Made by a program: the position numbers and the translations under genes
The notes under the pieces: model-generated
Told to the model about the DNA's origin: nothing
What the model saw: only the letters and a program-made list of their open reading frames with translations
The model's database searches: none
Assembly (NCBI RefSeq): GCF_000003815.2
Contig: NC_049979.1
Span: 27,080,470 to 27,144,469 of the forward strand
Reading direction: 5' to 3'
DNA: 64,000 bases
Origin: Branchiostoma floridae
Taxonomy: Eukaryota > Chordata > Leptocardii > Amphioxiformes > Branchiostomatidae
Shown here: positions 28,701 through 58,300 of the stretch, one piece after another
How positions within the stretch are numbered: the first letter of the stretch is position 1
Layout of the letters: the number at the start of each line of letters is the position of its first letter

Positions 28701-31700
28701 ATCCCCATTTACTCACATACATTTGCAAATTTTCAGAATAGGAGATAAAGAGTTAACAGTTCACTATTTTGGGTTGTGCAAGTAAGTTTCTTTTGGTGCA
28801 AGTTACCTTTTGCTCAACTTGCACTGGTGCAAGTTAACTGAAAAGTGTATTTCGAGCCCTGATAGGTGTTGTTAAAGAGAAGTTCTTGTTTCCTGTGTAT
28901 AGGTGTTGTCCATGAGAAGTTCTTGCTGCTGAGTATCCAGTCTCTGTGTGAGCTGCCTGATGACATGGGGTACATGCCGTGTGAGATCGGCGTGGTGGAG
29001 TATTCACTACAGGAGGGTATCACACGGGAGTTCCACAGGTTCATACAACCTGGTGAGGACAGCTTTCAACTCACTCTGCCCTTCTAAACTACTGTATATA
29101 TTCAACACTTTCAACACTGGAGGTATGACATTTTTTAAAGACAGTATGACATTGTATTGAACAGTATGATGTTGTATTGAGTAGCATGACATTGTATTGG
29201 GTAGCATGACATTCTTTTGGACAGCAAAATACAGCCATTGGCAAAATTTGAGGTGATTTGAGAACATTTTAGGTACAGCCACTTCAGCTGGAAAAAGTTC
29301 AGCAGGTACAATGTATTCTTAAAAACATTTCTGTTAGCAGTACTTCATGAACAACCCATCATAATCATGATTTATTGATAAATCCATTTGAACTGGGATT
29401 GTGTCTAGTGCATTTTGAATTTATTGAAGGATGTGAAGCGAAGTCATAAGTTGTCTACTTATCAATGTCGGCCCAGAAATCTTTCAGTATTCTTCTACAG
29501 CACTGTTTAGCGATATTTTTGTCTTTGTTCAGCGCAAATTTCAAGATGGTCTAAAATGAAAAGTATATGTGCGAGTGCTGTATTTTGGACCTGAACCGAA
29601 ACGTTTTTGCAAGTCCAGAACCGGTCTGGCGTACCGGCAAGCTTTATTTTTTGCTCATTTTTTATTGGCACGCCGTGCGACCATCATTTCAAAAATAGGC
29701 GCATCCTTAAAATTACGGTCGCAATGCGACCAAATCTAGTCGCAGTCACGATCCCTGGTCTACCTTCTCTTTTATACTTACAGTACCATCTTTTGAAAAT
29801 GGAACAAACTCCAATGTTTTGTTTCAAAGACTACCATACAGAACTTGAGAATAATGCTGTTTTCTCCACAGGAAAACCACCGCTGGGATATCGATACTTG
29901 TGCCAAAGCACCAGTGAGTACCTATTCTATGTCTCAAAGACTCATTCTGACGTTAGTATTGCTGCCAGTCATTTTTTTTTAGCGACGCTTCGGGGCGGAG
30001 CCATCATAATGTTCTGTTGTCAATAAAGATGCCATATGTATTTCTTAGCATAGTGGGACTATGTACAAGTACCACTAGTCCTGACTAGGAATCAGATACT
30101 AGGATATCCCCTTTCTTCCTGCCTAGGGCTGGGTATTGGTACAGCGTACCGGTACAAAACCGTTTTTTTCTTATTGGACCGGTCCAGAAAAACCGGACCT
30201 GAAAAAATTAGGTGGACCGGATGATGAACCAATTAGAAAATTAACAGATTGTTTTATCAGGCATTCACACGTTTTGGCGCTTGCAGGTACAAGAAAATAA
30301 CAAGAGTGAAGTAGAGTAGAGTTTATATTAATTTCTACCAAGTTTTACAGCCAATCGTACAGGTGCAGTTAGCGTTGAAGGATTTTAAAACGCCAGTGTT
30401 AGTCTAATACTCCACCAAACAGATTTCTTTGTAGTGAAATGGACCATTGGTATGAGTCATACTGCATCAGGTCCAGGTTCAGGTCCTGACCTGGACCTGA
30501 TCCTTTGGACCTGAACCGGACCTGGACCTGAATTTTCTGTACCGGTACCCAGCCCTATTCCTGCCCTAACAAACATGGCTGCCATCGGTTCTCCTGCCCT
30601 TTGTGTTCCAGGTGACAACACACATCAGATCCCCATCGAGGGGTTCGAGCTGGCGGAGGGAGACTACCACCGACTATGGACAGATCTCTGCAAGTTTACC
30701 AGCCCCAACGGCAGGGACTTTCCTCCGCTATACGTTCAAGTTAGTCACTTTTGACCTTGTTCAGATGAACTGTAGTTGTGAGAAAACAGGTTGTGTTTAT
30801 GTGTTTGTACAAGGGTTGTAATATGTCTGTGCTGTAATTTTCTTCAGCAAGGAAGGAACTAGCTTGGTTTGGCCTAAGGTAGAACTTGACTGTGTGAACA
30901 TATACTGTATGTAGAATATAACATGGTGTGTTTCGTAACACTAGAGTACCAGCTTAACCGTTTGTATGACCGGCTGAAGGCCGAAGGCTGGTCAAACTCA
31001 CAGGATTGTATCTTGTATCTTATTTACGTCATACCAACATGAGAAAACACATATTTGAATGTGAAACGCAACAGAATTTGAGAAAATTTTGGTGTCCTCG
31101 GCCAAAAAATTGTAGCAACACCAATTCCAACATCCATATCCGGAATTTATAGCACTAGGACGCACTCAAAGTGTATTCAGTTTGTTCTATGGATAGTCTG
31201 GATAGTGTCCAGAACGGCCATAATCATGTTATCATGGCCCAACTATGACATGAAACGGATTACAATAATGATATTGATGTATTACTTTTGTCCCTGCATA
31301 GGTGACACACACTTCCATGTGTGAGTGGTGCCTGGACTGGCTGTCAGAAATGGCAGGTAAGTGGAGCTTAATTGATAAAAGAAAAAGTACAGCGACTTTC
31401 GTACAGTCTACATTTTGAACTTGAGTCAAAATGAGTCCTTGAAGTGATTAGATTTTGGACCCCTTCACAGCTTGTTAAGGTACTGTAGGGAAACTTCTGG
31501 TTATGACATGCTATGGACATAATTTTTCAGTTATAGATACCTTGTAAAAGGAAGAGTAAGCAGTGTAGGCTTTGATTCCCAAGTGGCATCTTTTTTGATC
31601 CCCTAGTGGCATCATCAGCAGGAGCTGGTTTTGTTTCTGAGTTTGAAAGAGAATAACTCAAGAAGTAGTTGACGGATCATCATGATTTTTTAATATTTTG

Positions 31701-34700
31701 ACACTGATCACTTCAGACAATATTCTTTTGCTCCTTTGTTGTTTGGTATTCCATAGTGAAGTCCTGAACAGTTACCCTTGAGCACTGTACATAACAGTAA
31801 ATCTATGTAATTTCAGTTCATTAGAGGTAAGTGTTATTACTAGTATTAGTTTCAAGCTGAACTTTTTCCTGGCCTTGAAATACTGTAACCTCCTTTTGTG
31901 TTGTTGATTTCCCGAGTACAGGCGAGTACAACAGGTTCCACGTGTACGAGTTGGACAGTCTAGTGAAGGACTTGTACGAGCACGGCGAGGGCCACGCCCC
32001 CTCCCTCAGCATGATAGCATCCATCCTCAACACTTCAGTCTTTGACTATGAAGATGGGTCCAGGTGAGGATGTAAACATAATGTTTAGGCCACAAGAAGT
32101 AAATTCTATGGATGACATGCTCTACAGACTTCATGCAAATTTTATTTGATAGGTAGTGATGTACATGTAGTAGTAGTTGTAGTGGTAGTAGTAGTAAAAA
32201 TAGGAACCATGAATATTGTACATGTAGAAACCATGAATATTGTATCACAAATTGTGATGACAAATTAAACATGGTATCACAGCCAACAAGTCTTTTATTT
32301 CTGTATCCAAGAGGTGCGCCAAGTGACACTAGTTTGGTAGACTGGTATCACTAACCAAATTGACAACTACAGTCATTGCTACCATATTAGTACCACTTTT
32401 ACTATCCACCTTGTTTCATTTCTACAACTATGGTCATGTACAGTCATGGCTGGTAACTACACTGCATATTTTCCCATTTTGGTATCTTCTTGTCATTTTG
32501 ACCATTTTTGTACTAGAAAAACATGTTTTTTTCAAAATGAGGTGAAACGTTATGAGTGTGTTGATGTTATCCATAGAGGTTACTTGCTGTGGCAGTGCTT
32601 TCATGATTTAATCCTAAGTTGAACAAAACAATACAAAAGAATAGATTCTTCATTTTGTTCATGCACATCTTCTTTGACTATTGAATAGACTTTGGCATTG
32701 TACTACATTAGTCACATTAAATTAGTGTCCATTTTCTACAATTTAAAAAAAAAAAATATTTGCTTACTTTGCAGCTGCTTTGTACTTTTTTTTAAATGGC
32801 CAAAGATTGTTGCACATGCAGACTTCATCATGTAATGGAACCAAGATGGCCTTACATCTGCATGGGATGTGTACGTTGTAAAGCTTGTGTTGTTGCACCT
32901 GTACAGCTGTGAATACCACGCCAGCAAGGAGGTGAAGTACTGTGCTCTGGGAGCAGTCAAGAGATTCTGGTGAGATCTTCTTCTCAATTTTCTAATCAAA
33001 TCTAATACTTGTATCTCCAAGCTATTAAGATGTGATTGTGCAATTGTGTTAGAAAGCCTGAACAAATGAAGTCTGAAGTTTTATTTAAAATCAAAATTGC
33101 AAAGATGACAACTGCTATTCCAATAATAGATACCAAACTGTTAATTATTAATAAATAGAAACAGGATACTAAATTGCAATCATGGCAATACTAAATTGCA
33201 ATTGCAATTGCAATACATTGTCTTTTGTACATCTTAGGAAAAAAAGGCAATTATTAGTAATAAGATTATCAGTACAATTGATATGAAAAAAGTACAACTA
33301 CCATTCCATCAAAGAATTAAAAAACCTTGATTAAAAACAATGCAGGCTATGTGCAATAGAAATTTCTCTTTGCTATTTAATTGCTGAACACATATCTGAC
33401 TAGAATGCTTCTGTCGCTTTCAAACATAGGAAAATCTACAGTAAAATGTCTTCTACATTAACTAAACTACAGAGGTGGAAGATTCTTTACTCTAATAACA
33501 AAAATTTTTTAAAAAGTTTGCCCATGCATCTACAGACGCGTAGGATGGCGCCCATCTCCACTTCGAAGCCCTTGGGCCACACATGTGCAAGTCACTACAA
33601 CAGGGGGCTGGTCCACTGGTAGTGATGTGTGTTTAACTTCCATACTCTTCCTCATTAGTGCTGAGTGCTAAGCAGAGAAAGCAGCATGTACCATTTTTAG
33701 AGTCTTTGCTATGACTCGGCCGGGGATCGAACTCACGACCTATCGAATGCAAGGCGAACACTCTACCCACTCGGCCATTGCACCGGTAATAACATTTACT
33801 CTAATAATACTCTAATTTATAACAAAGAGTTATTTCTGTTGCTTGTTAGTTTCTCCATCAGTGACTCCATGGCCCAGGTGTATGACCTACAGCTGACAGC
33901 CCGTCACCTCCCGGAGAGACCAGAGAACCAGGGCCACTACACCATCCTGCCTTCTGATGCCTTCGCTCTGGACAGGAGGCCCATGTGGGTCTGTACAAGT
34001 CTTCTTTTCTTTGTTTCTCTGCAGTCAGACTGGCACTATTCTCTATGAACTATTCTCTATGAACTACCCATCACACCTAAGCTTTGCACAGCTTCATGTA
34101 GCTGCAAGCATTCTTAAAAGCACACAGTAGTGGTAATGTGGTCCACTCAGTGATGTTATGTAAATTTTGGAATGCTTCAATCCTGGTTTCATTACACATA
34201 ACTGTGGGAATGAAAGGCATGACTTTTTCCTTGTTCTTGTCTGATAGATGAATACTTAGAAGTTCCACCAGTTTATTAATAATTTTTTACATAGTCTGAA
34301 CATTCTTCTATAGTTTTTCATACCGATGGCTCTGCCACACTGGTTACGTGGTATGAGGGTATCTGTAGTTAGTTGAGATGGCCCATCCTCTCCCTGAAAG
34401 AGGACAGGGATGGGGTAGTTACTGTTCCTGTAGTTAGACAGTTCCATTCTAAGATTGTGCATGGTAAATGTGTTTATGTGTATGTGTTTTCCCTATAGGA
34501 CCCTCCATCTCGACAGAGAACCACATCCCAGCCCAGAGGAGCAGCCTATAACCCACCTCCCTCCTACAGCAGAGACCAGCGTAACGGTATAGCAGCTGCC
34601 TCACCCTCCGAAGGCAACTTCCCCGCAAGAGACATACGCGTACTCACACAGGTAGTGTTTCATTTTTTAACACACATCTAAAATATTATTTCTATATTTC

Positions 34701-37700
34701 CACCTAAATTTTCACCTCAAAATGTATATCAGGGTCCCTGATATGACAGGGAAAAGGTATATGCTGCATGAAATATGAAGTAATTTTGGAAAAGTTTATT
34801 GTACATGTATTGGCATAACGTCCGAATGGTACATTTCTACACAGAGATGATCACAAAGTAGTCTGCTTTTGCAGGGGGTCGCTAATCTGGTGGTGTGCAT
34901 AATGCTTTTTTGCATGCAAATATTTTCTAGCTTTCTTTTCTTTCAACATGCCTGGTAAAAAGTGCCTGAGGATGGAGGAAATGTACAGATTTCTTGGTGA
35001 TTTTACCATACTGGGACAGTTGCTATAAATACTTCAATCTATACATTTAATACAATGTTGTACCGTGGGACCGCGTAGCACAGTGGTATTGTGTTTGCCT
35101 CGTTAACGAGAGGTTGTGGAATCGAATCCGCCGTGCTGCCGATGTTGTGCCCCTGGGAAAGGCACTTTACTCACGAATTTCCTCACTTTACTCAAGTGAA
35201 AATGAGTCGTCCCTCGGATAGGACGTTAAATGGAGGTCCCGTGTCTGTGGAGAGCCACACCCCAGGCACGTTAAAGAACCCACCACATGTGCGATGGTGC
35301 GGTGTGAGCGGTTCAAAACCTACAGTACCTTGGCCGCACCTGGGGCAATTATTGTCGTATTGAGGTCACCTGAGTGGCGCCGAATGGCAGCTCGCTCCAG
35401 ACACTTGTGACAGTCGTATTGAGGTCACCTGAGTGGCGCCGAATGGCAGCTTGCGATTTAGCGCCTATTGTAAGCTCCTCGCAATTCAGCCCCTGGCTGC
35501 AAAGAGTGAGTAGTCGGCCCACCCAATAACAAAATGTCATACAACTTGTCATACAACCAGACTTGACCATGAAGTGTTTTTACTGACAGCTTTGACCTCC
35601 ACCCCTGCAGGCGACCCATTCAGCCAGCTCCTCGAATGTTCCTGAAACTCAAGCACTGCGGAAGCCAACCACTCCGGGTGAGTACCTGTACCTACTTCAG
35701 CTTTTCTTCCACAGGACTTACTGCCTTCAGTTTGTGTCCACTCCAACCAAGACAACAGGCAATGTCAAGGGTTGGTGTGAACTGAGCAAGGGTGGATGTC
35801 TAACTGTGAAGGCTACATACTTCTAAACTTTTGAAGGCTACATACAACAAATTTAGTACCATCTAGATTTAGATTTAGATTTAGCCCCGCCTATTGTAAG
35901 CTCCTTGCAATTCAGCCCCTGGCTGCAAAGAGTGAGTAGTCGGCCCACCCAATAACAATAGTACCATTTACTTTATCAATCTTCCCTGTACCTGGACCAC
36001 TTGCTGTGGTTGCAGTTCTTGCCTAGATAAGTGCATTTTGCACCTGTTTTGCCTCCCCTTCACCCTGTGATAAATCCAAATAAAGAAGTAAAGTGATGGA
36101 CTGCAGTATGGGATACATGACGGAGATTGAAATGTTATTGTGTTTTGTGTTTTGTTGATGTGAAACCACTACAAGTATATGGCCATGCGAAGGTGCTGTA
36201 TGGGTAAGGGGGTGAAGTTTGCCATCTCTGATCGCCATGTTTCTGTAGCTTTTGTTGCCCAACTGATTGGTGCAGTGTGGGTAAGGGGGTGAAGTCTGCC
36301 ATCTCTGACCGCCATGTTTCTGCAGGTTTTGTTGCCCAGCTCAGTGGTGCAGTAGTGGCAGGGTTGGGACGAGGCCGTGGTAGGGGGACTCTTGGACTGA
36401 CACCAGAACAGATGAGGACCCTGACAGCCTCTGGGAGACCCCAGCCTGGTAGGTTCAGCCATTTTGGATTTTTTTTGTCCTGAATGCCGAGGTGCCTTTG
36501 GTCATTGATCAAGATAGATAACTAGACTGTAGGAACACAGGTGGACAAAGTAGCAAGATTTTCAATTAAGATATTGATGTACTTTGTACCAGTTTCTCTG
36601 ACTGAGACCTGTAGTAATGCCTAGCCCCAAATATATGATATACAAATGTACTACTCAACAGGAACATGTTTAGGTCCAGGCCTGATCATGATCCTCTGGA
36701 CTGAATGTCCCATACTGGTGCCCACTAGTAGTGTAGATTGGTAATATTTCTGTACAGGTTTTGTTTGCTGTTTTTAAGTAGCTACGTGTAACACTAAAAG
36801 CTGTTGCCAGGCTATATGGCACATGAATTAAACATAGACTACAAGGTTGATGGTAGTAAGTGCTATCTCTGGTTCAGCATCCCAACAAGCCAGGGTACAC
36901 ATGCTGTAAAGCCTACGTCACATTTCAGGGGCCCCGCCAGGCAGCTTTTGGGAACGAAAAAGTATGATATAAAAGACACAAAACTACACAAGACGTAAAG
37001 AGAAAAGTCATGGGCATCCATGAAGATGGAGGTATTGCTTGTGTATATTTCTACGTAGACATTTCTATTTTTCATTTCCACAAACAGCCCGGCTGGGCCG
37101 CGGTTTGGAAATGTGACGTTAGCCTAAGTAGTAGGACTTTACCTGACTGGGAGTTACAGTGTGTTATGCTTTCAATATCTTTGTCAAAGCCTTCTTAAAG
37201 GGGCATTCCACTCCTGAAGGGAGTCTTGTTTTCCATTAAATGATGCATCAATGAATACATAATCAGCCAAATTTTGTGGAATTCACCTTGGGATGAATTG
37301 CGTGATGTGTTGTTATAAAACAATAATGACACTCACTAAACCCATGCAGACCCTACCCATGCATTTCCTATACGCATAGACACTTTGTTTATCGTACATA
37401 TTTTTGGAATAAATGAGGTACGCTAAGCACACCGAGAAGGCAAATTGCTCATAAGATAGCAAAGAATACAAGAACAAGACGAAATTTCTTAGCGAACCTG
37501 AAATTAGTTTGGTAACCTTACCTAAAAGTTTTGCATTGTATTCAGCCATAGGAATAATTCAATTAGAGGGTACTTGGGGAGTTTAGTAGAAGACTGAATG
37601 CTTTTGAGGCACGTGGAGCAACTGGGTATTTCATCGTATGATGTGAAGTATTATGCATTTATTACTTCCTAAAATTAATATCTATTGGAAAATAAAACTC

Positions 37701-37825
37701 CCGTGTGGAGTGGAATGCCCCTTTAATCTTAAACACCCTGTTTATGTACAGTTGGAGGTCTACAGCAGCAGATGGCTGGCCTGACTGTTCACACTCAACC
37801 AACCGGCCGGGAGAACTTGGACTGA
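25757..37825 (+). CDS. MAEL: Maelstrom (piRNA-pathway HMG/MAEL-domain protein), complete
   Basis: Fourteen exons join in phase to 490 codons: 25757-25900, 26725-26832, 27344-27428, 28903-29052, 29872-29913, 30612-30739, 31302-31356, 31922-32063, 32907-32969, 33850-33988, 34499-34651, 35611-35677, 36326-36448, 37752-37825. Exons 1-2 encode an HMG box (P-K-K-K-N...N-G-F-W-V-Y-M-Q-E). Exons 4-10 encode the Maelstrom domain, an RNase-H-like fold (P-C-E-I-G-V-V-E-Y-S-L-Q-E-G-I, E-F-H-R-F, C-E-W-C-L-D-W, C-E-Y-H-A-S-K-E-V-K-Y-C). The C-terminal tail is low complexity, with a G-R-G-R-G-R-G segment in exon 13. Maelstrom acts in germ-line transposon silencing with Piwi proteins. Human MAEL is 434 residues, so this one is somewhat longer in its tail. 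The exon 10 donor (GTCTGT) is weak but required by phase. Exons 3, 4 and 13 have duplicated splice junctions (see findings). A candidate AATAAA is at 38746-38751. Confidence 0.96.
27437..27772. mobile_element. hAT-like MITE inserted at the MAEL exon 3 donor
   Basis: A 336-bp element with termini CAGGCTTTTAGC and GCTAAAAGCCTG, flanked on both sides by the identical octamer GTGAGCAC (27429-27436 and 27773-27780). An 8-bp duplication and CAG-starting ends fit the hAT superfamily. The left octamer is the exon 3 splice donor itself. No transposase is encoded. Confidence 0.88.
28109..28861. mobile_element. hAT-like element with CAGGGCTCGAAATA ends
   Basis: Termini CAGGGCTCGAAATACCA and GTATTTCGAGCCCTG bound 753 bp in MAEL intron 3, ending 41 bp before exon 4. 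Repeats of 'gtgcaagttaact' type lie inside the right end. The flanks (ATTATAGG and ATAGGTGT) are not a clean 8-bp duplication. A solo end of the same family is near 63684. Confidence 0.8.
30124..30557 (-). mobile_element. hAT-like MITE, GGGTACCGGTAC family, copy 1
   Basis: Ends TAGGGCTGGGTATTGGTAC and GTACCGGTACCCAGCCCTA, flanked by identical octamers TTCCTGCC (30116-30123 and 30558-30565). Interior rich in GGTCC/GGACC motifs. Lies in MAEL intron 5, in the opposite orientation to the copies at 50178 and 62132. Confidence 0.9.
30941..31220 (+). repeat. Old, partial copy of the repeat at 37990-38411
   Basis: Shares the ATAACATGGTGTGTTTCGTA-like head, the CATGAGAAAACACAT block and the TTTGGTGTCCTCG block in order with 37990-38411. 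Located in MAEL intron 6. Confidence 0.65.
33530..33786 (-). mobile_element. tRNA-derived SINE
   Basis: On the minus strand the head reads GCCGAGTGGGTAGAG (A-box-like) then GAGTTCGATCCCCGG (B-box-like) at tRNA spacing. The body runs to about 33530. It is a SINE in MAEL intron 9, not a functional tRNA: no acceptor stem closes around the boxes. Confidence 0.75.
35060..35530 (+). mobile_element. tRNA-derived SINE with duplicated 3' segment
   Basis: A-box-like GTAGCACAGTGGT at about 35075 and B-box-like GTGGAATCGAATCC at about 35116 are followed by a long body. In the 3' part GTCGTATTGAGGTCACCTGA occurs twice (35352 and 35414). The last 65 bp are repeated once more at 35888-35958. Located in MAEL introns 11 and 12. 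Confidence 0.75.
35888..35958 (+). repeat. Extra copy of the SINE 3' end
   Basis: Matches 35461-35530 almost base for base (CTATTGTAAGCTCC...GTCGGCCCACCCAATAAC). It is either a truncated insertion or a duplication around exon 12. Confidence 0.75.
37199..37722. mobile_element. MITE with TTAA target duplication
   Basis: Terminal inverted repeats AGGGGCATTCCACTCC (37199-37214) and its complement (37707-37722) bound 524 bp, flanked on each side by TTAA (37195-37198, 37723-37726). A TTAA target fits piggyBac-type elements, though the end sequence alone does not prove it. Its degenerate sister is at 1350-1870. It ends 25 bp before MAEL exon 14. Confidence 0.9.
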
Positions 37826-39226: not shown

Positions 39227-42200
39227 TTATATTCTGGATGGAGGAAGTGGTGCTTTCCGTCTCGGCGGCGAAGATGTAGTTGTTGTGCCAGGAGACATGC
39301 ACTCGTCGTATGAAGGTGGAGCTGTGGAGAAAGAAACAGATATTCATATGGACATAAAGACAGGAAATTTTGGAGACGTTAAATGCTAAGGAACTGAACA
39401 TGTTGTGGCATCAGTAGTATTCTTCTTGTAGGACACATACGATAATCTGTATGAAAATGTTAATCAAATGGTAGCCTTCTTTGCATAATTTAAGAAGTTA
39501 CAAAACTTTTAAAAGAAATTACAAAACTTTTTGCATGTTCCTACATCTTATATGAAGTTTCTTTTACTTAGCCTCCTTTGCAGTCTTTATACAGCAGTGC
39601 TGGCTTTTCTTTATCAGGATGGGGAGCGCTGATTCCTGATTTTCGACATGGGCTATGGCTGGGAGAGGGAGTTTCTGGGCAGTCTAAATGTAAAAGCCAG
39701 CACTGATAGGAGTCTGCAAAGGAGGCTAGTTAGATGGTAAAACAAACTTCATCTAAGATGTAGGAAAAGTAAAATGTTCTGTAATTTCTTCTTTCTTGTC
39801 TTCTAGATCAGATGTTACCGAAAGTGGACTCTATATGATTACAACGAGCAGCTACCTACACCTACTGTAAGTTGTATAGCCCCTGTCACACATGGCTGAC
39901 CATGGCCTCCCGACCTTCTCTACACCATGGTTAGCAGTTTATTTGGTTGGGAAAGAATTTTGAAAAATCTAAGGTAAGAAAGTCATATTCCTGCAGTGAT
40001 GTGCTAGAGACGGATTCCAGACCATTGCTTTAGGACATTTAAGTCGTCGGAAGGTCTTGAATGTGTGACAGAGGCCTAATCCACACCACCTTTTTAACAA
40101 CCTTGCCACCCTTTCATGGACAATCCTGCCCGCCACTCACGTTCCTCGGGAAGCAGTGCAGCGGCGCCCCCTGGCGAGTCCCACTGAGACGCACCCCGAC
40201 CCGACGTGCCGCTCCGGTCTGACGTCCAGCTGGTCGCCCCTGGGGTGGGGAAACTTGTGTTGGAGGACACAGAGGGTGTTCCCCGTGGGGTGGGGAAGCT
40301 CGTATTGGAAGATACCGAGGATGTTCCCCTTGGGGAGGGGAAGCTTGCATTGAAGGGGAGAGGGGACGGGATGTCCGATAAAATGTCAGGAAAACAGGCG
40401 ATTCTCAGTGGAAGGTAAACATCCAAGTCATATTTGGGGTCGGATGCCCTCGCTGAAACCTGGAGTAATAAAGATGTGATAAAAGATTTAGCAAATCCTT
40501 TTATACTTAACGGCATGATATGGTGAATATCAGGTAACGAGAAAATACGTGTAGCTCATTGAAACAGGCGCGGCCCAGAGAGGTAAGCGTTCTGCAAGAT
40601 AGCAATAGGGCTAGGGTTCAATAGAAATTGGACTAAAATTATTATAACTCATAACATGCCAGAGGAGTTGCCTGGTCACAAACCGTACTCCTGCGACAGC
40701 TAACACCTCTGGCATGTAATTTGTCTATATGTGTCCAATTTCTACTGTTTTACCAGCGACCGGGTAGAGGATAAGACTTCCATACGTACCTCATACGGAC
40801 TTGAATATGCACGCACGGTTGAACATGGCTTTATATGTTAAGTAAATTTCCCCACTTCAGATACTTGAAGTTTATATTCCTGCCGGCAGACGAAGCTACT
40901 TTGTTGATGTGAAACTCTTTTAAACGGAGCTGCGTGACCTCCCTACCTTGAGTTCGTATTCCACGGAGATAAGTTTGCTGTTCTTGAGAGTGACGGGCGC
41001 GTCTGCGGGGATGGCCAGCGGCTCGGTCCACTGCATGTTCTGTCTGCGGTCCACTCCGCGTCCCCGGCTACTCAGCACCACGTCCGTTACCAGCTTCTTC
41101 TGCTGCTTCCGACTCCCCTTCTTCTTCAGCTTCCCGCGGTAAATTATGTCCTGAAGAAATATCGAGCACAACAACATGGCATCATGCGATGGTTACTCTA
41201 GCCCTGCTCAAGAATGTTACGAGACAGAAAATGTTCTACTCTCCAAGCAGAGGTTAGGCTCCCGCTGTTTTTGACGTTTTTTTTAGTCGATTTTATTGGG
41301 CTTTCTATTTTGTAATGTTTCTTGAAGTCCGCCAGGTTTTGACACAGCAAGATACAATACAAAATAGAAAGCCCGATAAAAACGACTAAAAAAAGCGTTA
41401 AAAAAACAGCCAGAGCCTAACCTCTGCTTGGGCCGAGGAGTAAAATGTTCGTTATTCTAGTTATCATAAATCACAACTTTTAATTTCCTGCTGCCTGTGA
41501 GATGCAGAAAGCCTATGATTTCTAAGGAACAACGGATTTGCAAAATTGTGACAATCACATGTGAAACACACACGTTAACTGATACTTGCCTATGGATGGA
41601 CTGACATCATTAAGGCTCACGTGTCCTTGTGACATATGGAGCGGCTAGACCTACCGGGTGAAGCCTTGGTGTGTTTGAGTCAGACCTATACCCGAATGAG
41701 TATAGCCAGTTAATGCGGGTGAGTCAGATCTACCTGGGTTAGGCTTAGGTCTCACTGGAAAAGGGGGCCCTGTTCACGGACTGTTTGGGGGACTTTCAGG
41801 CTTGGCTCCGCGGCCGTGGAACACATTGCGGCTGCCTGGTGTGAGCAAGACCTACCCAAATGAGTGGAGCTTTACTGTGAGTGATTCCGACCTACACGTG
41901 TCAGTGTATCTTTAGTGTGAGTCCAACGGTCCAACGGTTGGACCTACCCAGTGTTGCCTTGGGGTGAATCAGACCTACCCAAATGAGTGGATAATTGGTG
42001 TGTGTGAGTCAGACCTACCCGTGTGAGTGTAGCATTTGTGTGTGTTATTAGTTATACCTAACCCGGTGAGTGTAGTCTCGAAGTGATTCTACAAACCTAC
42101 CCGGGTGAGTGTAGCCTTGGTATGAGGGATTAAGACCTACCCGTATGACTAGTGTAAGGAGAATAGTCTTGATGTGCGTAAGTCAGACCTATCCGGGTGA

Positions 42201-45087
42201 GTATATCCTTGGTGTGAGTGATTCAGACCTACCCGGGTGAGTGAAGCCTTGGTATGAGGGATTAAGACCTACCCGTATGAGTGTAAGGAGAATAGTCTTG
42301 ATGTGCGTAAGTCAGACCTATCCGGGTGAGTATATCCTTGGTGTGAGTGATTCAGACCTACCCGGGTGAGTGTAGCCTTGGTGTGCGTGTGTCAGACCTA
42401 CCCGTGTGAGTATACCCTTGGTGTGCGTGTGTCAGACCTACCCGTGTGAGTGTAGCCTTGGTGTGCGTGTGTCAGACCTACCCGTGTGAGTATACCCTTG
42501 GTGTGCGTGTGTCAGACCTACCCGTGTGAGTGTAGCCTTGGTATGTGTAATCCTACAGCCACACTGGTTCCGTATGTGCACGGTGAGCTGCACCTGGTCC
42601 CCCGGCCCGTACACCCCGCGGTCCGTCCGGGCCTCCAGCTCCACGGACCGGGACACCAGTCCGCAGTACCGCGCCGTGGTCTTGTCTTTGGAAGCCACCG
42701 ACGGCGTCTGGCATGCAGTGGGGTAGATAAATGTATGTTAGTAGAATGAATTCATTTGTATCCTTGTGTTGTTGATACATGTATAGTTTCATCAGCTAAA
42801 TGCTCACTATCCTACTTTTTGAAACATCTTTTGCTTCTTGTTACGTTTCATTACACGCTTAAGGACCTGATGGCAGCCCGCAGCCATAGGTAAAATCTGT
42901 GCCTGCATGCGACAAAACTCCCTTTAATTTCCCGCCTTTACGCCTTTGCCAATGTTGAACAACGAAAACCAACGCTCCCCACAAAAAATAAACGTCACTG
43001 ATCCAGATACGTCTACGAAGAAGGCTATATATTCTTATCTTGCTATACCCACCCGACATCCTCTGTCCGTGCTCGGGTCACAGATGTCCTGTATCATGAA
43101 CTGTGCCTGTGACACGTAGTTCGACTTGTTCCACGGTCTCTCGATCACCGCCTGTACCTTGTACTTTATGGTACCGAACTCCCCTTTGAACGTAGCGGGT
43201 ACGTCCGTTGGTAGGGTGCACTCAAACGGGAAGGAGTGCGCGCCTTTCTTTAGGGACGATCCCAACGGACCAAGCAGACTCTTGCTGAAGGCTGGAAGAG
43301 GAAGTACTGTATCATCACCAGTTACTAGATACCAACACACAAGCACCTGTTACCTCTATGAAATGAAGGTACTGCTTTTGGTCTGTGTGTTAGCGTATGG
43401 GGTTGTGTGCTGGTGAACGTTTGCGTGTTGGATTGTGTGGATTTAGCGTATATGTGTGGGTTTATTTGTGTTTCCTTATACTATTTGTGGTCAGCATGAC
43501 TTGATTTTTTTCGTATTGCAATTCTGACATGATGCTTTTGATAGTGATATAGTAGTTACCAACGTAAAGTTTCTAAGAAGAAACACTATGTGGCTTCATG
43601 TGTCCTTTCTGAAAGATTTGACATACGTATACGCGCGTACGGTTGACTTGCGTTTGTCGACTCAAGGAGTGTGATATCATGCGATATAACCTCCTTGGTC
43701 GACTGTTATATTGCCTTGCACGTGGGTGCTTTTAGTACGTACTGTATACGTATGGGCTATTACGACCAGCACTCCACGGCTAAGGCCGTTGACTAGGATG
43801 CTGTATTTTCGTATGTATGTGTTTTCGTAAGTATGTGATCGCATTTATATAAACCATATCTATTATATTAATTCGTCTTGTTCCTACCTCCTGCCGCAGT
43901 GTAAATCGTCCTGGTCTCCTCCAGGTAGACCTCAGATCCCGCCATTTTGGGCATGTCTGTCCAGGTCAGCTCGTCCCATTCCACAGACGCCTGGCCTTGG
44001 AAGATCACTCGGATAGCTGCAGACCCAAGGCAGTATTAGTTTACATGAGGGCTACATACACGTCACATAGGAACTACGTACACGGTACATGGGAACTAAC
44101 GTTACCTACAAGTAACATACAAACGGCGGAATTGATGCGGGTGCGGACGTCATCCATATAATAAAATCAACATGGCATTACACGTTACAAGAGAACTGCA
44201 TACACGTGACATATACATTACAAGAGAACCATATACACGTTACATGGAAACTTCATACACGTTATATGGGAGCTACATACAAGTTACATGAGAACTACAT
44301 ACACGTTATATGGGAACTACATACAAGTTATATGGGAACTACATACACGTTATATGGGAACTACATACAAGTTATATGGGAACTACATACAAGTTATATG
44401 GGAACTACATATACACGTCACATGAGAACTACATGTACACACACGACCTTACATGGGAACTACCGTATGATACGCGTCACATGGGAACTACATACACGTC
44501 ACATGAGAACTACATACACGCCACATGAGAACTACATACACGTTACATTGGAATTAATTTTTTACATACACGTTACATGGAAACTACATACTGGTTCACG
44601 TTGCATTGGAACTACATACACGTACCGTTCTGGCTTTATGGATATACGACAAAAAGTACAGTGACTTTCGTATGGTCAACTGTAAACTATAGCTACAAAA
44701 AGGGATACAGAATGAATTTTAAAATTCTACTGACACTATAGGACAATAAGAAAGTCTTACTGATATACTTGTCGCGATCTTTATGTATTAACAAATCTTG
44801 GCATGCTGTCAGATCTAAAGATATAGTCCAATCTATTTCTGGTGTCGAGTTTCTCGAAATCTGTAGTATTTAGACACAGGAGTGTGACAAACTTAAAACT
44901 ACAACGGACGTAAGCGAGACAGAAAAACGCACACCGGCGATGTCAACAATGCATGCTTGCCTTTGAGCTTCATACTCTGGTTCAGTTCCAACTTGACCGT
45001 CCCGCCAACAACTTCCCCCGGTTGATAAACTGGCGGCAGGCGGTCCATCTCCACCTCAAACGTCTGCATGTTTCCGATGGTCGTCAT
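39227..45087 (-). CDS. Alpha-arrestin (arrestin domain-containing protein), complete
   Basis: Seven exons join in phase to 432 codons: 45087-44961, 44016-43888, 43291-43053, 42707-42522, 41150-40947, 40459-40141, 39321-39227. Residues about 5-160 are the arrestin N domain (including I-K-Y-K-V-Q-A-V-I-E-R-P-W) and about 170-312 the arrestin C domain (S-V-E-L-E-A-R...Y-G-P-G-D, then V-E-Y-E-L-K). The family (ARRDC1-5, TXNIP) are cytosolic adaptors that recruit NEDD4-type ubiquitin ligases to membrane cargo through PPxY motifs. Exon 7 supplies P-P-P-S-Y-D-E and a basic, proline-rich end. Length matches human ARRDC3 (414). Intron 1 needs a GC-AG donor (AAAG then GCAAGC). Exon 6 uses GTGAGT at 40140; reading through instead would stop at 40094 without the PPxY. 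Exon 6 contains a threefold 15-residue repeat, and the exon 4 donor is amplified as a minisatellite. It converges on MAEL and diverges from the Rh gene. Confidence 0.94.
39515..39792. mobile_element. Fold-back MITE in ARRDC intron 6
   Basis: Arms of about 100 bp are inverted: GAAATTACAAAACTTTTTGC...TTAGCCTCCTTTGCAGTC on the left against GTCTGCAAAGGAGGCTA...GTAATTTC on the right. The AAGCCAGCACTG segment also pairs with its complement. The centre is about 80 bp. Confidence 0.85.
39807..39866 (+). CDS. Possible orphan plus-strand exon
   Basis: A strong acceptor (TTCTTGTCTTCTAG) and donor (GTAAGT) bound exactly 60 bp, open in two frames, one reading R-C-Y-R-K-W-T-L-Y-D-Y-N. It lies inside an intron of the minus-strand ARRDC gene, downstream of MAEL's stop. 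It could be a cryptic or alternative terminal exon. There is no family match. Confidence 0.25.
40219..40351 (-). repeat. Coding minisatellite: three 45-bp units in ARRDC exon 6
   Basis: Three in-frame units encode N-A/T-S-F-P-S/T-P-R-G-T-x-S-V-S-S at about residues 332-375 of the alpha-arrestin, in the linker between the arrestin C domain and the PPxY motif. Confidence 0.85.
40605..40765. mobile_element. Fold-back MITE in ARRDC intron 5
   Basis: CAATAGAAATTGG...ACATGCCAGAGG on the left is inverted as CCTCTGGCATGT...CCAATTTCTACTG on the right. Confidence 0.7.
41237..41442. mobile_element. Fold-back MITE, TACTCTCCAAGCAGAGGTT family, with target duplication
   Basis: A 206-bp element with long arms, flanked by identical octamers AAATGTTC (41229-41236 and 41443-41450). 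This fixes the family's ends as TACTC...GAGTA and its target duplication as 8 bp. Located in ARRDC intron 4. Confidence 0.92.
41640..42550 (-). repeat. Minisatellite made from the ARRDC exon 4 splice donor
   Basis: About 20 units of roughly 40 bp. On the minus strand each contains a version of AAGGCTACACTCACACGG followed by GTAGGTCTGA; the unit nearest the gene is the actual end of exon 4 and its donor (42522/42521). A higher-order period of about 125 bp is visible at 42115-42365. Units decay with distance from the exon. Confidence 0.9.
44036..44640 (-). repeat. 22-bp minisatellite in ARRDC intron 1
   Basis: About 25 units of the form GGGAACTACATACACGTTAT, 22 bp long with some insertions, begin about 20 bp from the exon 2 acceptor. 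Confidence 0.92.
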
Positions 45088-47746: not shown

Positions 47747-47790
47747 CTGGCACACACACACACGCACGCACATAAATTTAAGCACACAGT

Positions 47791-47830
<40 letters not shown>

Positions 47831-48025
47831 AACAAATACACTTACATTCATGCACACATACACATGCATACACACATTTACACACACACACACACACTTA
47901 CACACATACATATACTCCTACCTTCACATACACACGCAATTACACGCGCATGTGCACAAAAAACATGCACACACCTGTATACAAACACGCACGCACATAA
48001 ACACACGCTGACAGGCGCACACATA
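47747..48025. repeat. (CA)n-rich microsatellite region
   Basis: Interrupted CA/TACA dinucleotide and tetranucleotide repeats over about 280 bp. Confidence 0.93.
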
Positions 48026-48849: not shown

Positions 48850-48863
48850 GCGCGCGCGCGCGC

Positions 48864-48911
<48 letters not shown>
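48850..48911. repeat. (CG)n-(TG)n alternating tract
   Basis: About 28 bp of CG dinucleotides run directly into about 33 bp of TG dinucleotides. This is unbroken alternating purine-pyrimidine, the classic Z-DNA-forming composition, 460 bp upstream of the Rh start codon. Confidence 0.95.
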
Positions 48912-48912
<1 letters not shown>

Positions 48913-49373
48913 TTCACGGTGTTATGTGTAACGTTCCATGCGACGTTATGTTGACGTTATACATGTAACGTCATTTGTGTTTGTGTTTGTATATGAGCGT
49001 GTTTGTGTATGAACGTGTGTCTTTCTCGGTGTCTATTTGTATGTGTTTGAGCTTGTGCACATAAAAAGGGGCTCACGATAACGTTACAGCCTTCTCATGA
49101 CAAGTAGAACAGAACATAGAATGTGTCAGGAAAGCTCGAGTAGTAACGCGCTCTTTTCTTCTAATGTTCGATCGGCAACGGCCGAGTACAATGACAGAAA
49201 AAATCATTGAAAATTGAGTAACGCCAACATCCCACACAGAAGAGAGGGTTTCCTGTGCCGTTATGCCCGTATATTGAAGGATTGTAGGGTCAGGATCTAG
49301 ACACCTAAGCAAACTGACGGACAACGCGAACCGCGTGGTTTCCTTCGGTTCCTTCACCGATTTATTTACAGTC

Positions 49374-52300
49374 ATGACAAGCAACTACGCACCACTGTAA
49401 GTATGACTGTATGAGATGAGTTCTGAAATGACTGATCTTTTGGGGATAGCCGCTGGATACCATTCGATTACTGATTTTTTTCAGGGCAGAGTCGGCAGTA
49501 ATTGGGTGGAACCAAATGTTCAAAGCTCAAACTTTTCTACTTGTGTCTGCTTGTCAAGTGCCTAATGTTTTCGAATTTCTTGTGCGTGCGTGATAGTGTG
49601 TGAGGTTTTGTCTGTCTGTGTGTTTCTGTTTGTTCGTGTGTATGTAACGTTATGTATGCGTGTATGTGTCTGCATGTTTGTGTGTGTGTGTGTATTGTTA
49701 TTGAAGGTTCCTGTCCTATTCCCAAACGCAAACTAACAAGTTACATGAAAAGAACTGAGAATAAAACAATATTACAATGAATGTCAAGAAGACTACGGTA
49801 CCCTACCAAATATTCATATAGACCAAGTGTGTACCCAACGTTCAATTTTGTTTCTTGTCTGCAGCATAGGGAGAGACTCCCGGCCCGATAGGCGGGGAAG
49901 GCTGACGGCGTTCCTGCTGGCTTTCCAGGCGCTGTTCCTGGGTCTGTTCGCGGGGTTCGTGCGGTATGGCCCGCCTGCAGGACCGGGTATTGCCGCCGCC
50001 GGCCCGACTATCGACCACTACTACCCGAGTACGTACAAACGCCACAAAATCGTTCCAAACCTTAATTTGATAGCACAATTTGAGGTGAACAAATCTTATA
50101 ACATGCTCACGACAGAAATATTGATGATATAGAAAAAAGTGTCCAATGTATTCCGTGACTTTATATAGTACTATAGTTAGGGGTGGGTACCGGTACAGAA
50201 AATGCAGGTCCAGGTCCGGTTCAGGTCCAGACGTTCAGGTCCAGGTTCGGACCTGAACCTGGACCTGATTCAGTATGTGAAAACTTGTGAATGGACAATA
50301 CTCAAAACAATGGTCCATTTTGCTACAAAGAAATCTACTTTGTGTAGTATTCGATTTCCACTGTCGTTTTAAAATCCTACAAAGCTAACTGCCTCTGTAC
50401 AATTGACTGTAAAAGTTGGCAGAAATTACTATAGACTCTACTCTACTTCGCTGTTGTTATTTTCCTCGACCGGTAGGCATAAAAACGTCTGAATGCCTGT
50501 TCATATGATCTGTTCATTTTCCAATCGGTCCAAGATCCGGTGTACCGGATTTTTTCAGGTCCGGTTTTTCTGGACCAGTCCACTGAGTAAAAACCGGTTT
50601 TGTACCGGTACACCGTACCGATACCCAGCCCTAGTACTAAGTCATAGTGTCCAAGCAATCGGTTGAATATTGCTGTCAAACTTATGACCTCCGTACAAAC
50701 GGAGGCAATGTTTTCGGTTTGTTTGTCTGTCTTGGTGTGTCTGTGCACGTTTGTTCCCGTTGGCTCTGGTCCAAGTTTGTTCTCTGGCAGCGCTGAATAA
50801 AAAGACAAGAAATGCAACATCTTCGCGAAAATGCAGAATGTTTTCCCCGTAGCGTTTGTCAAGCTGCTCTGATTGGTTCCTGTTAGAAGAAGAAGAAAGA
50901 AGTTCACACAGTCAAAACAATTTCTTTTCCCAATCAGGAATATACATGAATTTCTTGTTGGATAAGTAGTGTTTGTTAAGGTTTGCTCCAGGAATGTAGA
51001 ATCTCTTTCTTTTTCAAATCAGGTTCGTAGGGCCTGATGTTAAAATCATGAAGATGAAGAGCGGCCCATAGCGATAACTGTAGCAGCATCTCTTCTCCCT
51101 AAGTCAGAAACATCAAGCTTAGGCAAGCTTGACTTCACTGACTCAATAGGCGAAGCAGGGTATACTAGGCTGCTCGGGAAATTCCCTGCCCCATTTTTGT
51201 CCGGAATGGTTTGATCCGCTCACACCGCCCCATCGCACATGTGGCGGGTTCTCTACTTTTCTTCTTCTCTCCACAGTGTTCCAAGACGTTCACGTGATGG
51301 TCTTTGTTGGTTTCGGTTTCCTGATGACGTTTCTGAAGATGTACGGTTACGGCAGTGTGGGGTTCAACATGCTGGTGGCTGCCTTCGTGCTGCAGTGGGC
51401 CATGCTCATGAGGGGATTCTTATATATGGAAGACAACACAATCAACTTAGATATCAGCAGGTATTGTATTGTGTGTTTGGGGGGCGTTGGGCGCAGAGAG
51501 TGGGAGAGAAACAGAAAGCGAGAAAGAATTTGTATCTCCTTTTATTTGTAGTATAAAAGTATAGGTCTGTATCTCTATGTATTTACCTTCTGTCATATGA
51601 TATTATATTGGTGTTCTTCATGTATAGGAGCTCAGCTGGAAGAATAGCCATGGAAATGTCAAAGCTAATTGTACATCAAAAATTTCAAAAAAAGTCAAAA
51701 TCACGAAGGAGAAGGCAAATGTCGCCGCTAGTACTGGCCACATTGCGTAACGTTAGATATAAAGGGAAAGTTCTTTTCAATTCATTCTCCGTCAACCTCC
51801 CGTCCTGACCATCCATTTAGCAATGTGTTACGTCCTGAATGCAACGATTGATACATAGTCTGAGACTGTCTGTAAAAAAAGGGCTTTATGAAGGACTATG
51901 ATACAACTTACAAAAGGTTCACGTACGATAGTCTTCTTTACCAATATGTACAAGTTACCGAATGTTGAAAATTGAAACTGCAAATATACTGTGTACTGTG
52001 TATCTTACAAACTGTCAAAGTTGTACACTGGTGCGTACAAAAGTGCCCTCCATACCTTGGGTCGCTATGTGATTAACGATAGTCGGCTGTGTGCACAAAC
52101 TGACAAAGGCAATGGAATACCTGGATGATCAGGACTGTTCTGTTATCCCTTGCTGTCCAGCCTGCTGACGGCTGACTTCTCGGCGGCGGCCGTGCTGATC
52201 TCGTACGGCGCGGTGCTGGGGAAGACGACTCCCGTGCAGCTGGTGGTCATGGCGTTTCTGGAGATCGCTTTCCTCACCGTGAACGAATGGATCGGGACCG

Positions 52301-55300
52301 TCCAGTTCAAGGTTTCAGTTTCAGTTTATTTATTTTACCAGCAGTAACACTCAGGTACATAACAACCTGTTTTTCAGGCAACGCTGGGTAAACAAAAATA
52401 CAATTTAAAACTTTGCAATATTTAAGGGGCCGGTCATATTATTCGTACGATAGACGTACGATCGTCGTACGATCGCAAAATGAGGGTATTCCTGGGATAT
52501 AGTCGTGCTGTGTTGTACGCAAAAAAAGGAAGCTGTCTTGAAAAGGCGATATTTGATCTTTGTCGGCGGTTCGTTCTGTCGTAGCCTGCTTGAAAATTCT
52601 ACGACACAAAATCGTACAACGGCCAACTAGGAATATGACTGCGCCGTAAGAGGCAACGACTTTTTGTTGGTCTACTAACTTGCTGATATATTGGCAATTG
52701 TTAAGCAAGATCTTCCGAAAACGTCGCTATCGGATTTAGTATGAACGATCTTACATGAGCATTTCTCTTTGAAGTCAAAGTTGTCCTGTAGGTGGGCGAT
52801 GAAGTTTTCGCTGTCTTGTCATTGCTTGTTGGCACGCGAAACCTTCCCTCTTAAACAGTCAGACGTTTCGGACAATATCCGCTGTTTTCGCCAGTGACTG
52901 CTGTCCGGTGGATGCTAACTGAAATGTCTGACCGTATCTGAACCGTATCATCAGCTAATTGAGTAACATTTCCATGTATATTGAACATGTTTTACCCGGA
53001 CCTTTTACCTTCATCGATGAAACCTTTCCCTTTTTTTAACTTCTCGCATTCCCTGACAGGCGCAGGACATCGGAGGCTCGATGTTCGTGCACGTGTTCGG
53101 GGCGTACTTCGGACTGACGGTGGCCCGCATGTTGTACAGGCCCGAGGTCTCAGACAGCGCCAAAGAAGGGGCCAACTACCATTCCGACCTCTTCAGTATG
53201 ATAGGTGAGTTAACTATCACTCCGACCTCTTCATTATGATAGGCGAGCGCACTTGTGATCACCTGTAACTTGACCAATACCGTCCTATGTCTGTTCCGTC
53301 TCGGTGCTAGTACTAGAGAAAATTTCCTGGCGGCAGGATTAGGGTTAGGAGTTAAGGGTTAGGGATATGGTCAAGGGTTAATTAGGGTTAGGGTTAGGAG
53401 TTAAGGGTTAGGGTTAGGGTCAAGGGTTAATTAGGGTTAAGTTTAGGGTTAGGGTAGGGCTAGGGTTATAGGGTAAGGGGCAAGGGTTAGGGTCAGGGAA
53501 TTAGGGTTAGGGTTAGGATCAGGGTTAGGGTGAGGGTGCAGATGTATGATTTCAGTCCTATCCTCCCTAGGTACGGTGGATGTACCATGTAGCCATGGCG
53601 GTAGAGTTAGGGTTAGGAGTTAGGGTTACTTTTAGGGTTAGGGTTAGGTAAAGGATTAGGGTTAGGGTTAGGGTTAGGGTTAGGGATAGGGTTCGGTTTG
53701 GGGTTAGTGCGAATGTATGACCCCTTCCTGTCCTCCCCCGGTACGGTGTTCCTATGGATGTACTGGCCGTCCTTTAACAGCGCACTGGTGGTAGAGTTAG
53801 GGTTAGGAGTTAGGGTTAGGGTTAGGGTTAGGTAAAGGTTTAGGATTAGGGTTAGGGATAGGGTTCGGTTTAGGGTTAGTGCGAATGTATGACCCCTTCC
53901 TGTCCTCCACAGGTACGGTGTTCCTGTGGATGTACTGGCCGTCCTTTAACAGCGCCCTGGCGGTAGAGTTAGGGTTAGGAGTTAGGGTTAGGGTTAGGTA
54001 AAGGTCTGAGGATTAGGGTTAGGGATAGGGTTCGGTTTGGGGTTAGTGCGAATGTATGACCCCTTCCTGTCCTCCACAGGTACGGTGTTCCTGTGGATGT
54101 ACTGGCCATCCTTTAACAGCGCCCTGGCGGTAGCAGACGGACGGTACAGGGCCGTAATCAACACGTACCTGTCTCTGGCCGCAAGCGCTGTGATCACCTT
54201 CGCCATATCCTCTGCAGTTGACAAGGACGGAAAAGTTAACATGGTAAGCTATAATCTTTTCTCGGATTCGTCGCATCTGGCACTTTGTCCATATTAAAAT
54301 TGACCAAGTGTACCAAAAAAGACTAAGCGCCAGATAAAAATCCCTAAAGGCTAGTACTTGGATACCAACCGAACAAAAAAGTCAAAGTGAAGATGACATT
54401 TTCATGTTATTGTGTTTAGCTTGTCTGCTTATATATGTAGGTATTTGTGCGTGTCTATATGTCTGTTTGTCTGTGGTTCTCAACATTGCCATGCACCCCC
54501 ATTGCTGTCTGTTGGACTGGGAATTTTACAATACTGTATGACCATGCGTAAGGAAAATGGTGAAGTCTATCTCCGTTGGCCTTCTTGAGCAAGTAAACTT
54601 CAAAATCCATTTTAAAATGTTAACCAGTCGGATCTGTTGACATGACTTTGTGGCTCCTGTGGTAGTATTTGGGTCCATCTCATGTCTCATACTCCACCAC
54701 CATCCCACCAGGTTCACGTACAGAACGCCACGCTGGCCGGCGGGGTTGCTGTCGGGACAACTGCAGACATGATGATTCAACCCTGGGGGGCGCTGCTGAT
54801 TGGCACCGCCGCCGGGACGCTTTCAACTATGGGATTTACGTACGTTCAGGTACGGTATCAATGTGTTTATGTCCTTGTTGTGACAAGTATACAATGAAGA
54901 CCTTTATTGTACATTTTCCCCCCTGTTACATGGGGGAAAATGTACAATAAAGGTCTTCATTCCTTCAAATATTGCAAAATGCACTAGCTTCCGAACAGCA
55001 ATGCTTTCAAGCCTTGCTGTATAAAAAAAGATTATTTGCTACAGACATACTTCATATCCGAAGAATTCGAAGATCTGCAAGGACATGGATTTGAGCCATG
55101 GGAAACACACACATACTAGAGACATAGGAAACATAGATATTACAAGAACATTTACCGACATTTATTTACTTAACGATGAAATCCCTTCATTCATGCCTCT
55201 TAGAGCTAGCTATTTGTAGGTCCTGAATCATATGACTATGACCAACATATACTATTGTAACTAGAAACCGATCAGATAAAATCCTTGGGTAAATCTAGAC

Positions 55301-58300
55301 GGTTACAGGTTGTTTCGCAACAATGTCAGTTCGCAACCGTCAGTTCGCAACAAGGCAAGTCTTTTCGCAACATGTACAAATTACAAGTCTTTTCGCAACA
55401 AGGTACAAGTCGTTTTGCAACATTTGAATGTTATTAATTTTGATAGCCTTATAGTATTAGAAATCGTATACGTATTCCTAACATAATTATACTCCTACCT
55501 GTGCACGTATGAAACTGTACCGCCCGGCGCATGAAAATCATCGGGCTGTCAGGTCCATGCGGCCCCATGTTCCTCTGCCGCCGGGGTTGTCTTTTGCACC
55601 CGGTAAAATTTTTACGCGAAAGGAGTATGATTATGTTAGGAATACGATTTCTAATACTATTAGGCTATCAAGATTAATAACATTCAAATGAAGCGAAACG
55701 ACTTGTACCTTGTTGCGAAAAGACTTGCCTTGTTGCGAACTGACGGTTGCGAACTGACATTGTTGCGAAACAACCTGTTACCATCTAGACATGTTATTAA
55801 GTGCAGTAGGGAAGGAAGCCTGTACTCATCAGTCTTGCCTTACTTGTGTTTCCTCCTCAGCCGTTCCTGGCTCGTCTGAAGTTCCATTACACGTGCGGTG
55901 TGAACAACCTAACAACGAATATAGGTTACCTAGCGGATAAAGGTTAACTGACGTTACTCATCATCAGTCTCACTGTACGTGTGTTTTCCTCCTCAGCCGT
56001 ACCTTGCTCGTCACAAGTTCCACGACACATGCGGTGTGAACAACCTACCAACGAATATATGTTACCTAGTGGATAAAGGTGAACTGGCGTTACTCATCAG
56101 TCTCACTGTGTGTTTTCCTCCTCAGCCGTTCCTGGCTCGTCTGAAGTTCCATGACACATGTACATGCGGTGTGAACAACCTACCAACGAATATAGGTTAC
56201 TTAGCGGATAAAGGTTACTTGGCGTTACTCATCAGTCTCACTGTAACTGTGTTTTCCTCCTCAGCCGTTCCTGGCTCGTCTGAAGTTCCACGACACGTGC
56301 GGATTGAACAACCTACTAACGAATATAAGTTACCTAGGCTAGCGGATAAAGGTTAACTGGCGTTACTCATCAGTCTCACTATGTGCTTTCCTCCTCAGCC
56401 GTTCCTGGCTCGTCACAAGTTGCACGACACGTGCGGTGTGAACAACCTACCAACGAATATAGGTTACCTAGGCTAGCGGATAAAGGTTAACTGGCGTTAC
56501 TCATCAGTCTCACTGTGTGTTTTCCTCCTCAGCCGTTCCTGGCTCGCCTGAAGTTCCACGACACATGCGGTGTGAGCAACCTACCAACGAATATAGGTTA
56601 CCTAGTGGATAAAGGTGAACTGACGTTACTCATAAGTCTCACTGTGTATTTTCCTCCTCAGCCGTTCCTGGCTCGTCTGAAGGCCCACGACACATGCGGT
56701 GTGAACAACCTTACAACGAATATAGGTTACCTAGCGGATAAAGGTGAACTGGCGTTACTCATCAGTCTGTTGTATGTGTGTTTTCCTCCTCAGCCGTTCC
56801 TAGCTCGTCACAAGCTCCACGACACGTGCGGAGTGAACAACCTGCACGGCATGCCGGGGCTGCTGGCCGGCGTGGCCGGAGCGGTGGCGTGCCGCCTGAA
56901 ACTGTGTGATCTCGGTGAAAGGTAAACTACGGTCACAACTGGAGAAAGGGGCCCCGTCGGGTAGTTACCGGGTTTTTTTTTTTCTTCTCTTCCCAGTGTC
57001 TCTCAACGGGAACCCGGGTTGATTTTAGCTGCGAGTTTGAAAAAAAATCAGTGGACCCCACCGTGCCCTAAAATAGCTATAGGAGACACGCCTGAAAGTG
57101 GAAAAAGTCCCGTTAACTACCCGCCGGGGCCCCCTTTTCACTGGTGACCGTAGCTGCTATTAAGGAAGCTATGCTGGGTTGTGGGCTGTGGGAAACAATG
57201 CAACCTGCATGATAGATGGCTCAAGTATTGGGCCAATCATTAACCCATTATAAAGGCTCCCAGCTATTGAACGTGCGCAACTTTGTTGAACCTTCTTTTT
57301 GCATAGTTGGGGCTGAAGGAGACATAGGTGGTGACACTTGTTAAAATCGACCATAAACGCTGTTTTCGCGGGGTAATGTACCTTTAGTGAGTGTAATAAG
57401 AGGGTCCACACACGTGCCCCTGGTTATTCTGTTAAAATCACAGAACCCACTATTAATCATTAAAGAAGTGGGACTTTTCATCAGCCACTGCCTCCAAAGA
57501 AGAAGTCAAACCACCCAGTAAAGAATGTAGAAGCATGTACATAGAAAGCCGACGTGTGTGTATATAGAATAGACACTTGTTACTTTTTACTGTCTGTATC
57601 ATTGCAATTAGCCTACGGGCATAGATTTGCAAATAAATAAATATTAAATATCATAACTTCAGGTCGGCTAGAGATCAGGCAGAATACCAGATGGCGGCGC
57701 TGTTTGTCACCCTTGGAGTCGCAGTGTTGGGCGGAGCCGTCACGGGCATCATCCTCCAACTGCCGGTCTGGGACAGGCTACAGGCCGAGGAGCTGTTCGA
57801 TGACAGAGTATATTGGGAGGTGCGTAGAGCGCTCCAACTTGTTTTGACACAGATAAATCATTTTATTTCATACCAGTGACGCGAAAACGTTCGATACGGG
57901 TGTTCCGGACCGGGCCATAACTTCCGTATCAGACCGGTTCGAAAGGCGTATCACACAGGCTCCATTCGAATAAATCGAACTGTTTCGAGCGGGCCGAGTG
58001 CGGCGCCATCGAATGTTTCAGACGACCTGATTCAGACGTTGGAACATTACTGTCGCAACATTTTTTGTTCGAGGGCACCAAATTTTTTCAACTTTTCACT
58101 TTCAACTTCGCATTTCGCATCAAAACATGGGTTTTCTCAGGTGGGTATGACATAAAATACAAGACGGTGTATTCCGCATCACCCTCGGTCTCAGCCCTCC
58201 CTCGGGTCGGATCACCCTCCGGCCTTCGGGTGATCCGACCCGCGGTCGGGCTGACACCTTGGGCGATACGGAATACACCGTGTTGTATTCTATATGTAAG

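Follow-up and report, generated by a model that had tools for sequence, protein, structure and literature searches.

Tandem arrays across exon-intron junctions in three adjacent genes of Branchiostoma floridae: a dense set of mirages, probably tolerated local duplications

The stretch of DNA analysed here, 64,000 nucleotides of the lancelet Branchiostoma floridae (NC_049979.1, positions 27,080,470 to 27,144,469; hereafter the window), contains six tandem arrays whose repeat unit crosses an exon-intron junction, two of them in MAEL, one in ARRDC and three in Rh, which are adjacent genes. They were identified by combining an array finder, direct reading of the sequence and gene models. An earlier reading of the same letters (the original prediction) had counted five such arrays, one donor and four acceptors; the arrays proved real, and the count is six, with four acceptors (A, B, F and G) and two donors (C and E). 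A unit that crosses an exon-intron boundary, as it does in all six arrays, is the defining feature of the structures described in amphioxus as mirages, in which the duplicated boundary may be the 5′ or the 3′ one (PMC3087553, PMC3902484; our use of these papers, and of PMC4974935, is limited throughout to excerpts). The arrays are thus new members of a known lancelet kind, densely clustered, as had been suspected. Our favoured explanation, to which we assign a probability of about 0.7, is that they are local tandem duplications with ends on either side of a junction, in a stretch rich in tandem duplications of all kinds. Tolerance of copies wherever splicing can ignore them, one of the two suggestions made in the original prediction, is the reading that fits best. 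The six arrays are as follows.

28866..28939, plus strand: array A, MAEL acceptor; 37-bp unit x2; predicted working junction 28902/28903, decoy 28865/28866.
36192..36358, plus strand: array B, MAEL acceptor; 77 bp x2.2; predicted working junction 36325/36326, decoy 36248/36249.
41964..42542, minus strand: array C, ARRDC donor; the array finder gives 40 bp x13.9, with a 129-bp higher-order unit; predicted working junction 42521/42522.
53174..53247, plus strand: array E, Rh exon-5 donor; 38 bp x1.9; predicted working junction 53204/53205.
53541..54133, plus strand: array F, acceptor of Rh exon 6; four copies of the acceptor at intervals of 167-172 bp; predicted working junction 54079/54080.
55845..56843, plus strand: array G, acceptor of Rh exon 8; eight acceptors at intervals of 129-139 bp; predicted working junction 56793/56794.

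Homology and reading frame indicate that the working junction is in every case the one in the exon-proximal terminal unit, as the original prediction had proposed. The terminal position of this unit is a matter of geometry, because the exon stays intact in the exon-proximal copy and in no other. After a duplication across a junction, one complete junction would still stand next to the exon, and the protein would be unharmed provided that splicing picks that copy; the spare copies would join the intron, where they may multiply and drift. The duplications themselves would presumably arise by slippage or unequal exchange.

Array A lies under the threshold of the array finder even at a score of 36 and was spotted by reading the sequence. 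A 753-bp element (28109-28861) has come between its decoy acceptor and the sequence upstream; this element, which we take to be hAT-like, has inverted ends of 15 bp and is flanked on each side by the 5-bp repeat ATAGG. When this element is skipped, the homology within the array extends further left and the empty site of the decoy aligns with the working junction. The element occurs in multiple copies (42 matches from the best 40 of 450 candidates scored); a separate high-copy repeat occupies 30123-30400 in a MAEL intron (at least 94% identity among the best 40 of 3282 candidates scored). In array C, copies of the motif continue beyond the limits set by the array finder, to about 41654, and the donor motif is matched in 14 copies of the approximately 40-bp unit, some intervening copies being unmatched by eye. 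The second copy in array E has GC in place of the GT of the donor. For array F the finder called 53632-54133 (172 bp x3.0) and the left limit of 53541 was set by reading; each of its four units combines degenerate TTAGGG-type repeats with the junction, and at 53740 the AG of the acceptor has been lost. Degenerate repeats of this type, including 34 exact TTAGGG, span 53335-54133 in an Rh intron and lie partly inside the array F units. All eight acceptors of array G share TTCCTCCTCAG, with some 50 bp of exon-like sequence after each, and the last alone continues into the full exon. A genome search with the unit of array G matched its own array only, a single array with no second haplotype in the assembly, and a transposon origin of this unit, the one tested, was thereby ruled out.

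The junctions were placed on the following gene models.

26725..37825, plus strand: MAEL gene, from exon 2 to the stop; spliced model, PF13017 match.
40947..45087, minus strand: ARRDC gene, a model of the first five coding exons; PF00339 and PF02752 matches.
49374..59478, plus strand: Rh gene, 10 coding exons; spliced model, alignment to RhCG and RhAG, PF00909 match.

Exon ends were fixed by the alignment of Rh to the RhCG and RhAG chains, by the Pfam matches for MAEL and ARRDC, and by reading frame and splice dinucleotides. The spliced Rh model aligns with RhCG (3hd6) at E=4.2e-128 and also with RhAG (7uzq), both alignments running through the junctions of arrays E, F and G. The first exon of MAEL lies near 25757, with one more candidate exon between it and exon 2. 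Exon 1 of ARRDC ends in AAAG followed by GC (44957-44961), which is likely to mark a GC-AG intron. A 45-bp tandem repeat at 40237-40356, its period a multiple of three, is open on both strands, and its minus-strand reading could represent an ARRDC tail rich in serine and proline.

The density of junction-crossing arrays, which the original prediction had called unusual, is high when compared with a sample from elsewhere in the genome: 5 of 50 modelled junctions are crossed in the window and 2 of 258 in the sample (Fisher P=0.0015, or 0.0036 when a third case, found by eye, is counted in the sample). The three genes are also richer in tandem arrays as such, with 12 in 27.1 kb vs 18 in the 219.4 kb of the sample (ratio 5.4, P=4e-5). 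A duplication-rich region explains the density in the window more simply than junction targeting does, and such a region together with tolerance is enough for the pattern seen there. The sample was drawn from genome searches with four protein families (PF00909, PF00063, PF00209 and PF00225) by taking the surroundings of exons; it comprises 70 stretches with 258 junctions resolved from the ends of matches, the open frame and the splice signals, a further 106 exon ends that were not tied to a splice site standing outside that number. The kinesin and SNF regions in it were chosen from match lists for their close-set exons and are therefore non-random, and loci matching PF00118 and PF00171 lie outside the sample. 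The window's own locus (L037) was left out, the dispersed-repeat copies L002-L008 stand outside the junction test, and two regions (C2:31967200 and C7:213600) were left out of it as they had been picked after tandem partial matches were seen. Junction-crossing arrays outside the window are listed here.

C2:4706071: sample crossing 1, donor of an ammonium-transporter gene; 85 bp x2.9.
C204:267065: sample crossing 2, acceptor of a SNF-family gene.
C6:18691097-18691222: kinesin donor, junction C6:18691222; 66 bp x1.9; third case, seen by eye and outside the script count.
C2:31967910: kinesin acceptor, three copies; outside the sample test, seen as tandem partial matches in the match list.
C7:214174: SNF-family donor (array S2); outside the sample test, seen as tandem partial matches in the match list.

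Several results weigh against tolerated local duplication as the whole explanation. When the units of 12 window arrays (period at least 20, score at least 50, array A left out) were positioned randomly within the spans of the three genes, which hold the 50 modelled junctions, in 20,000 simulations, 1.23 arrays were expected to cross a junction and 5 of the 12 do, at P=0.0034, a value that is optimistic because the window was picked for this very pattern. Array C entered the test with its 129-bp higher-order unit, which increases the expected crossings, and 7 of the 12 arrays cross no modelled junction; if array A, itself discovered by looking at junctions, is included, the count is 6 of 13 and P=0.00035. 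The sample leans in the direction of a junction preference as well, with 2 crossings vs 0.89 expected and the third case by eye, and it is small and centred on the exons of four protein families. Array S2 shows no difference in its exonic copy over 80 bases but a 20% difference over the 24 intronic bases compared; the exonic identity could come from recent conversion or from constraint. In array G, the eight units are all identical over 16 bases around the acceptor (P=0.04, gap columns removed), although the strong invariant core that appeared at first (P=0.0026) weakened, once the gap columns were taken out, to P=0.0385 for eight units and 0.055 for the seven decoys.

The placement result and the lean of the sample would be expected if duplication were mechanistically drawn to exon edges, for instance by transcription- or splicing-linked breaks or template switching, and the occurrence of six cases in about 28 kb, together with several published cases in few genes in the excerpts cited, points the same way. 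To that extent the placement test agrees with the original prediction that such a set is unlikely if duplication ignored junctions. The remaining evidence does not: the excess in the sample is not significant (P=0.21, the two crossings coming from 18 arrays), and in the window 6 of 50 junctions lie within arrays, no excess over the 13.2% of intron bases that do. The placement test counts founding events and the coverage test counts copies as well, and the two disagree. Sample arrays show no peak at the exon edge between the junction and 400 bp into the intron, on small numbers: coverage is 2/258 at the junction and 2/258 at 40 bp, and 3/255, 4/249, 5/236, 4/223, 5/202 and 2/185 at 80, 120, 160, 200, 300 and 400 bp. 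Neither kind of junction is favoured; among 11 arrays, the six in the window and five elsewhere (2 acceptors and 3 donors), there are 6 acceptors and 5 donors, and an acceptor bias was rejected. The mechanism at exon edges that the original prediction proposed as its other suggestion is thus unsupported by the sample, and we consider it unlikely. A two- to four-fold preference for junctions is compatible with the small numbers of the sample. If real, such a preference would suggest that a mutational process is linked to exon edges. The bolder picture, in which about one junction in 100 carries a crossing array, duplication is two to four times likelier at junctions than in introns, and a minority of decoys, the in-frame acceptors of Rh exon 8 for example, are in transition to new exon sequence, has in our view an outside chance of being right.

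Spare units might alternatively be retained as functional, serving as alternative splice sites or as extra exon sequence. This possibility draws on the invariant acceptor core of array G, on the exonic identity in S2 and on three open, in-frame insertions: those at the two decoy acceptors of Rh exon 8 nearest the real one (56661 and 56532), of 132 and 261 nt or 44 and 87 residues, and one of 168 nt or 56 codons at the C7 SNF-family donor decoy of S2. A predicted, unconfirmed in-frame insertion of 57 residues in PGBD5, described in the excerpted text of PMC3902484, is in keeping with it. These three are, however, the only decoys both in frame and open among the 25 that were tested (17 in the window, 8 elsewhere), and the nearest decoy lies at a multiple-of-three distance in 3 of 11 arrays (G, S2 and K2), as expected for tolerated duplications. 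Comparison of decoy with working units over the 11 arrays gave a difference of 11.8% in exonic sequence (144 of 1225 sites) and of 13.5% in intronic sequence (143 of 1058 sites), rough figures in that the units of C were picked by donor motif and one unit of G is shifted by a 6-base insertion. Exonic and intronic drift being almost equal, a general constraint on decoys was rejected. The lack of a consensus dinucleotide in one acceptor of F and in the donor copy of E also argues against function, as does the regular splicing of mirages suggested by reverse transcription PCR in the available part of PMC3087553. We regard retention for function as improbable. That the arrays are assembly errors, for example two divergent haplotypes joined end to end, seems to us very improbable. 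Lancelets are highly heterozygous, which would favour such errors, but the eight units of G, with their varied lengths and about 10% divergence, are beyond what two haplotypes give; the units of A and E are 10-17% divergent in their exonic parts, and a multi-copy transposon-like element lies within array A. Copy numbers that differ between two assemblies, reported in the portion of PMC3902484 cited, could be taken as a sign of misassembly, yet new sequencing confirmed the arrays of that study.

The frequency of junction-crossing arrays in the sample, 2-3 of 258 junctions (95% limits about 0.1-3.4%), suggests that mirages are common rather than curiosities, and chance and tolerance may explain them; we found no genome-wide survey of mirages in the open-licence literature. 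Mirages place near-identical splice sites 37-172 bp apart and thus offer natural tests of spliceosome choice. A route from such arrays to intron sliding or new exons, as the original prediction envisaged, is possible, and the idea of intron gain put forward in the excerpts of PMC3087553 becomes countable genome-wide.

Other elements in the window include what looks like a LINE-type retrotransposon, with a long open frame at 4356-6806 that carries a reverse transcriptase domain (PF00078, E=1.7e-39), and a minus-strand open frame at 17324-18544 with an NYN domain (PF01936, E=2.2e-13). Six runs of N (assembly gaps) of 100-165 bases fall within 7917-15735, none of them near the arrays.

The amphioxus Adh3 mirages are reportedly minisatellites that cross junctions, with units of 10-72 bp, and are said to show somatic instability; the window arrays share the junction-crossing minisatellite structure, the instability being a report on Adh3. 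Adh3 is named as the first mirage in the excerpted text of PMC3087553. The globin mirages described there have units of 150-160 bp with 81-100% identity between units and spare AG/GT signals; that of BflGb6 is on the acceptor side, its two haplotypes carrying 6 and 3 units, and BflGb9 has a mirage too. Both these and the window arrays are tandem units across acceptor or donor junctions, whereas the window offers six cases in three adjacent genes, with units of 37-172 bp, in one haplotype. The 60-bp and 108-bp arrays at splice sites of PGBD5 (PMC3902484, which in the part cited also refers to a troponin C case) resemble the window arrays in having repeats at donors and acceptors and a working copy at the edge of the array, and the 57-residue in-frame extra exon predicted for PGBD5 is a further likeness; the PGBD5 copy numbers, 2 or 7 and 3 or 6, differ according to the assembly, whereas the window arrays are known from one assembly. 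Intron gain by tandem genomic duplication, as presented in the excerpts of PMC4974935, likewise takes tandem duplication as the raw material for new splice sites, but a new intron is claimed there, whereas the working junctions in the window appear unchanged.

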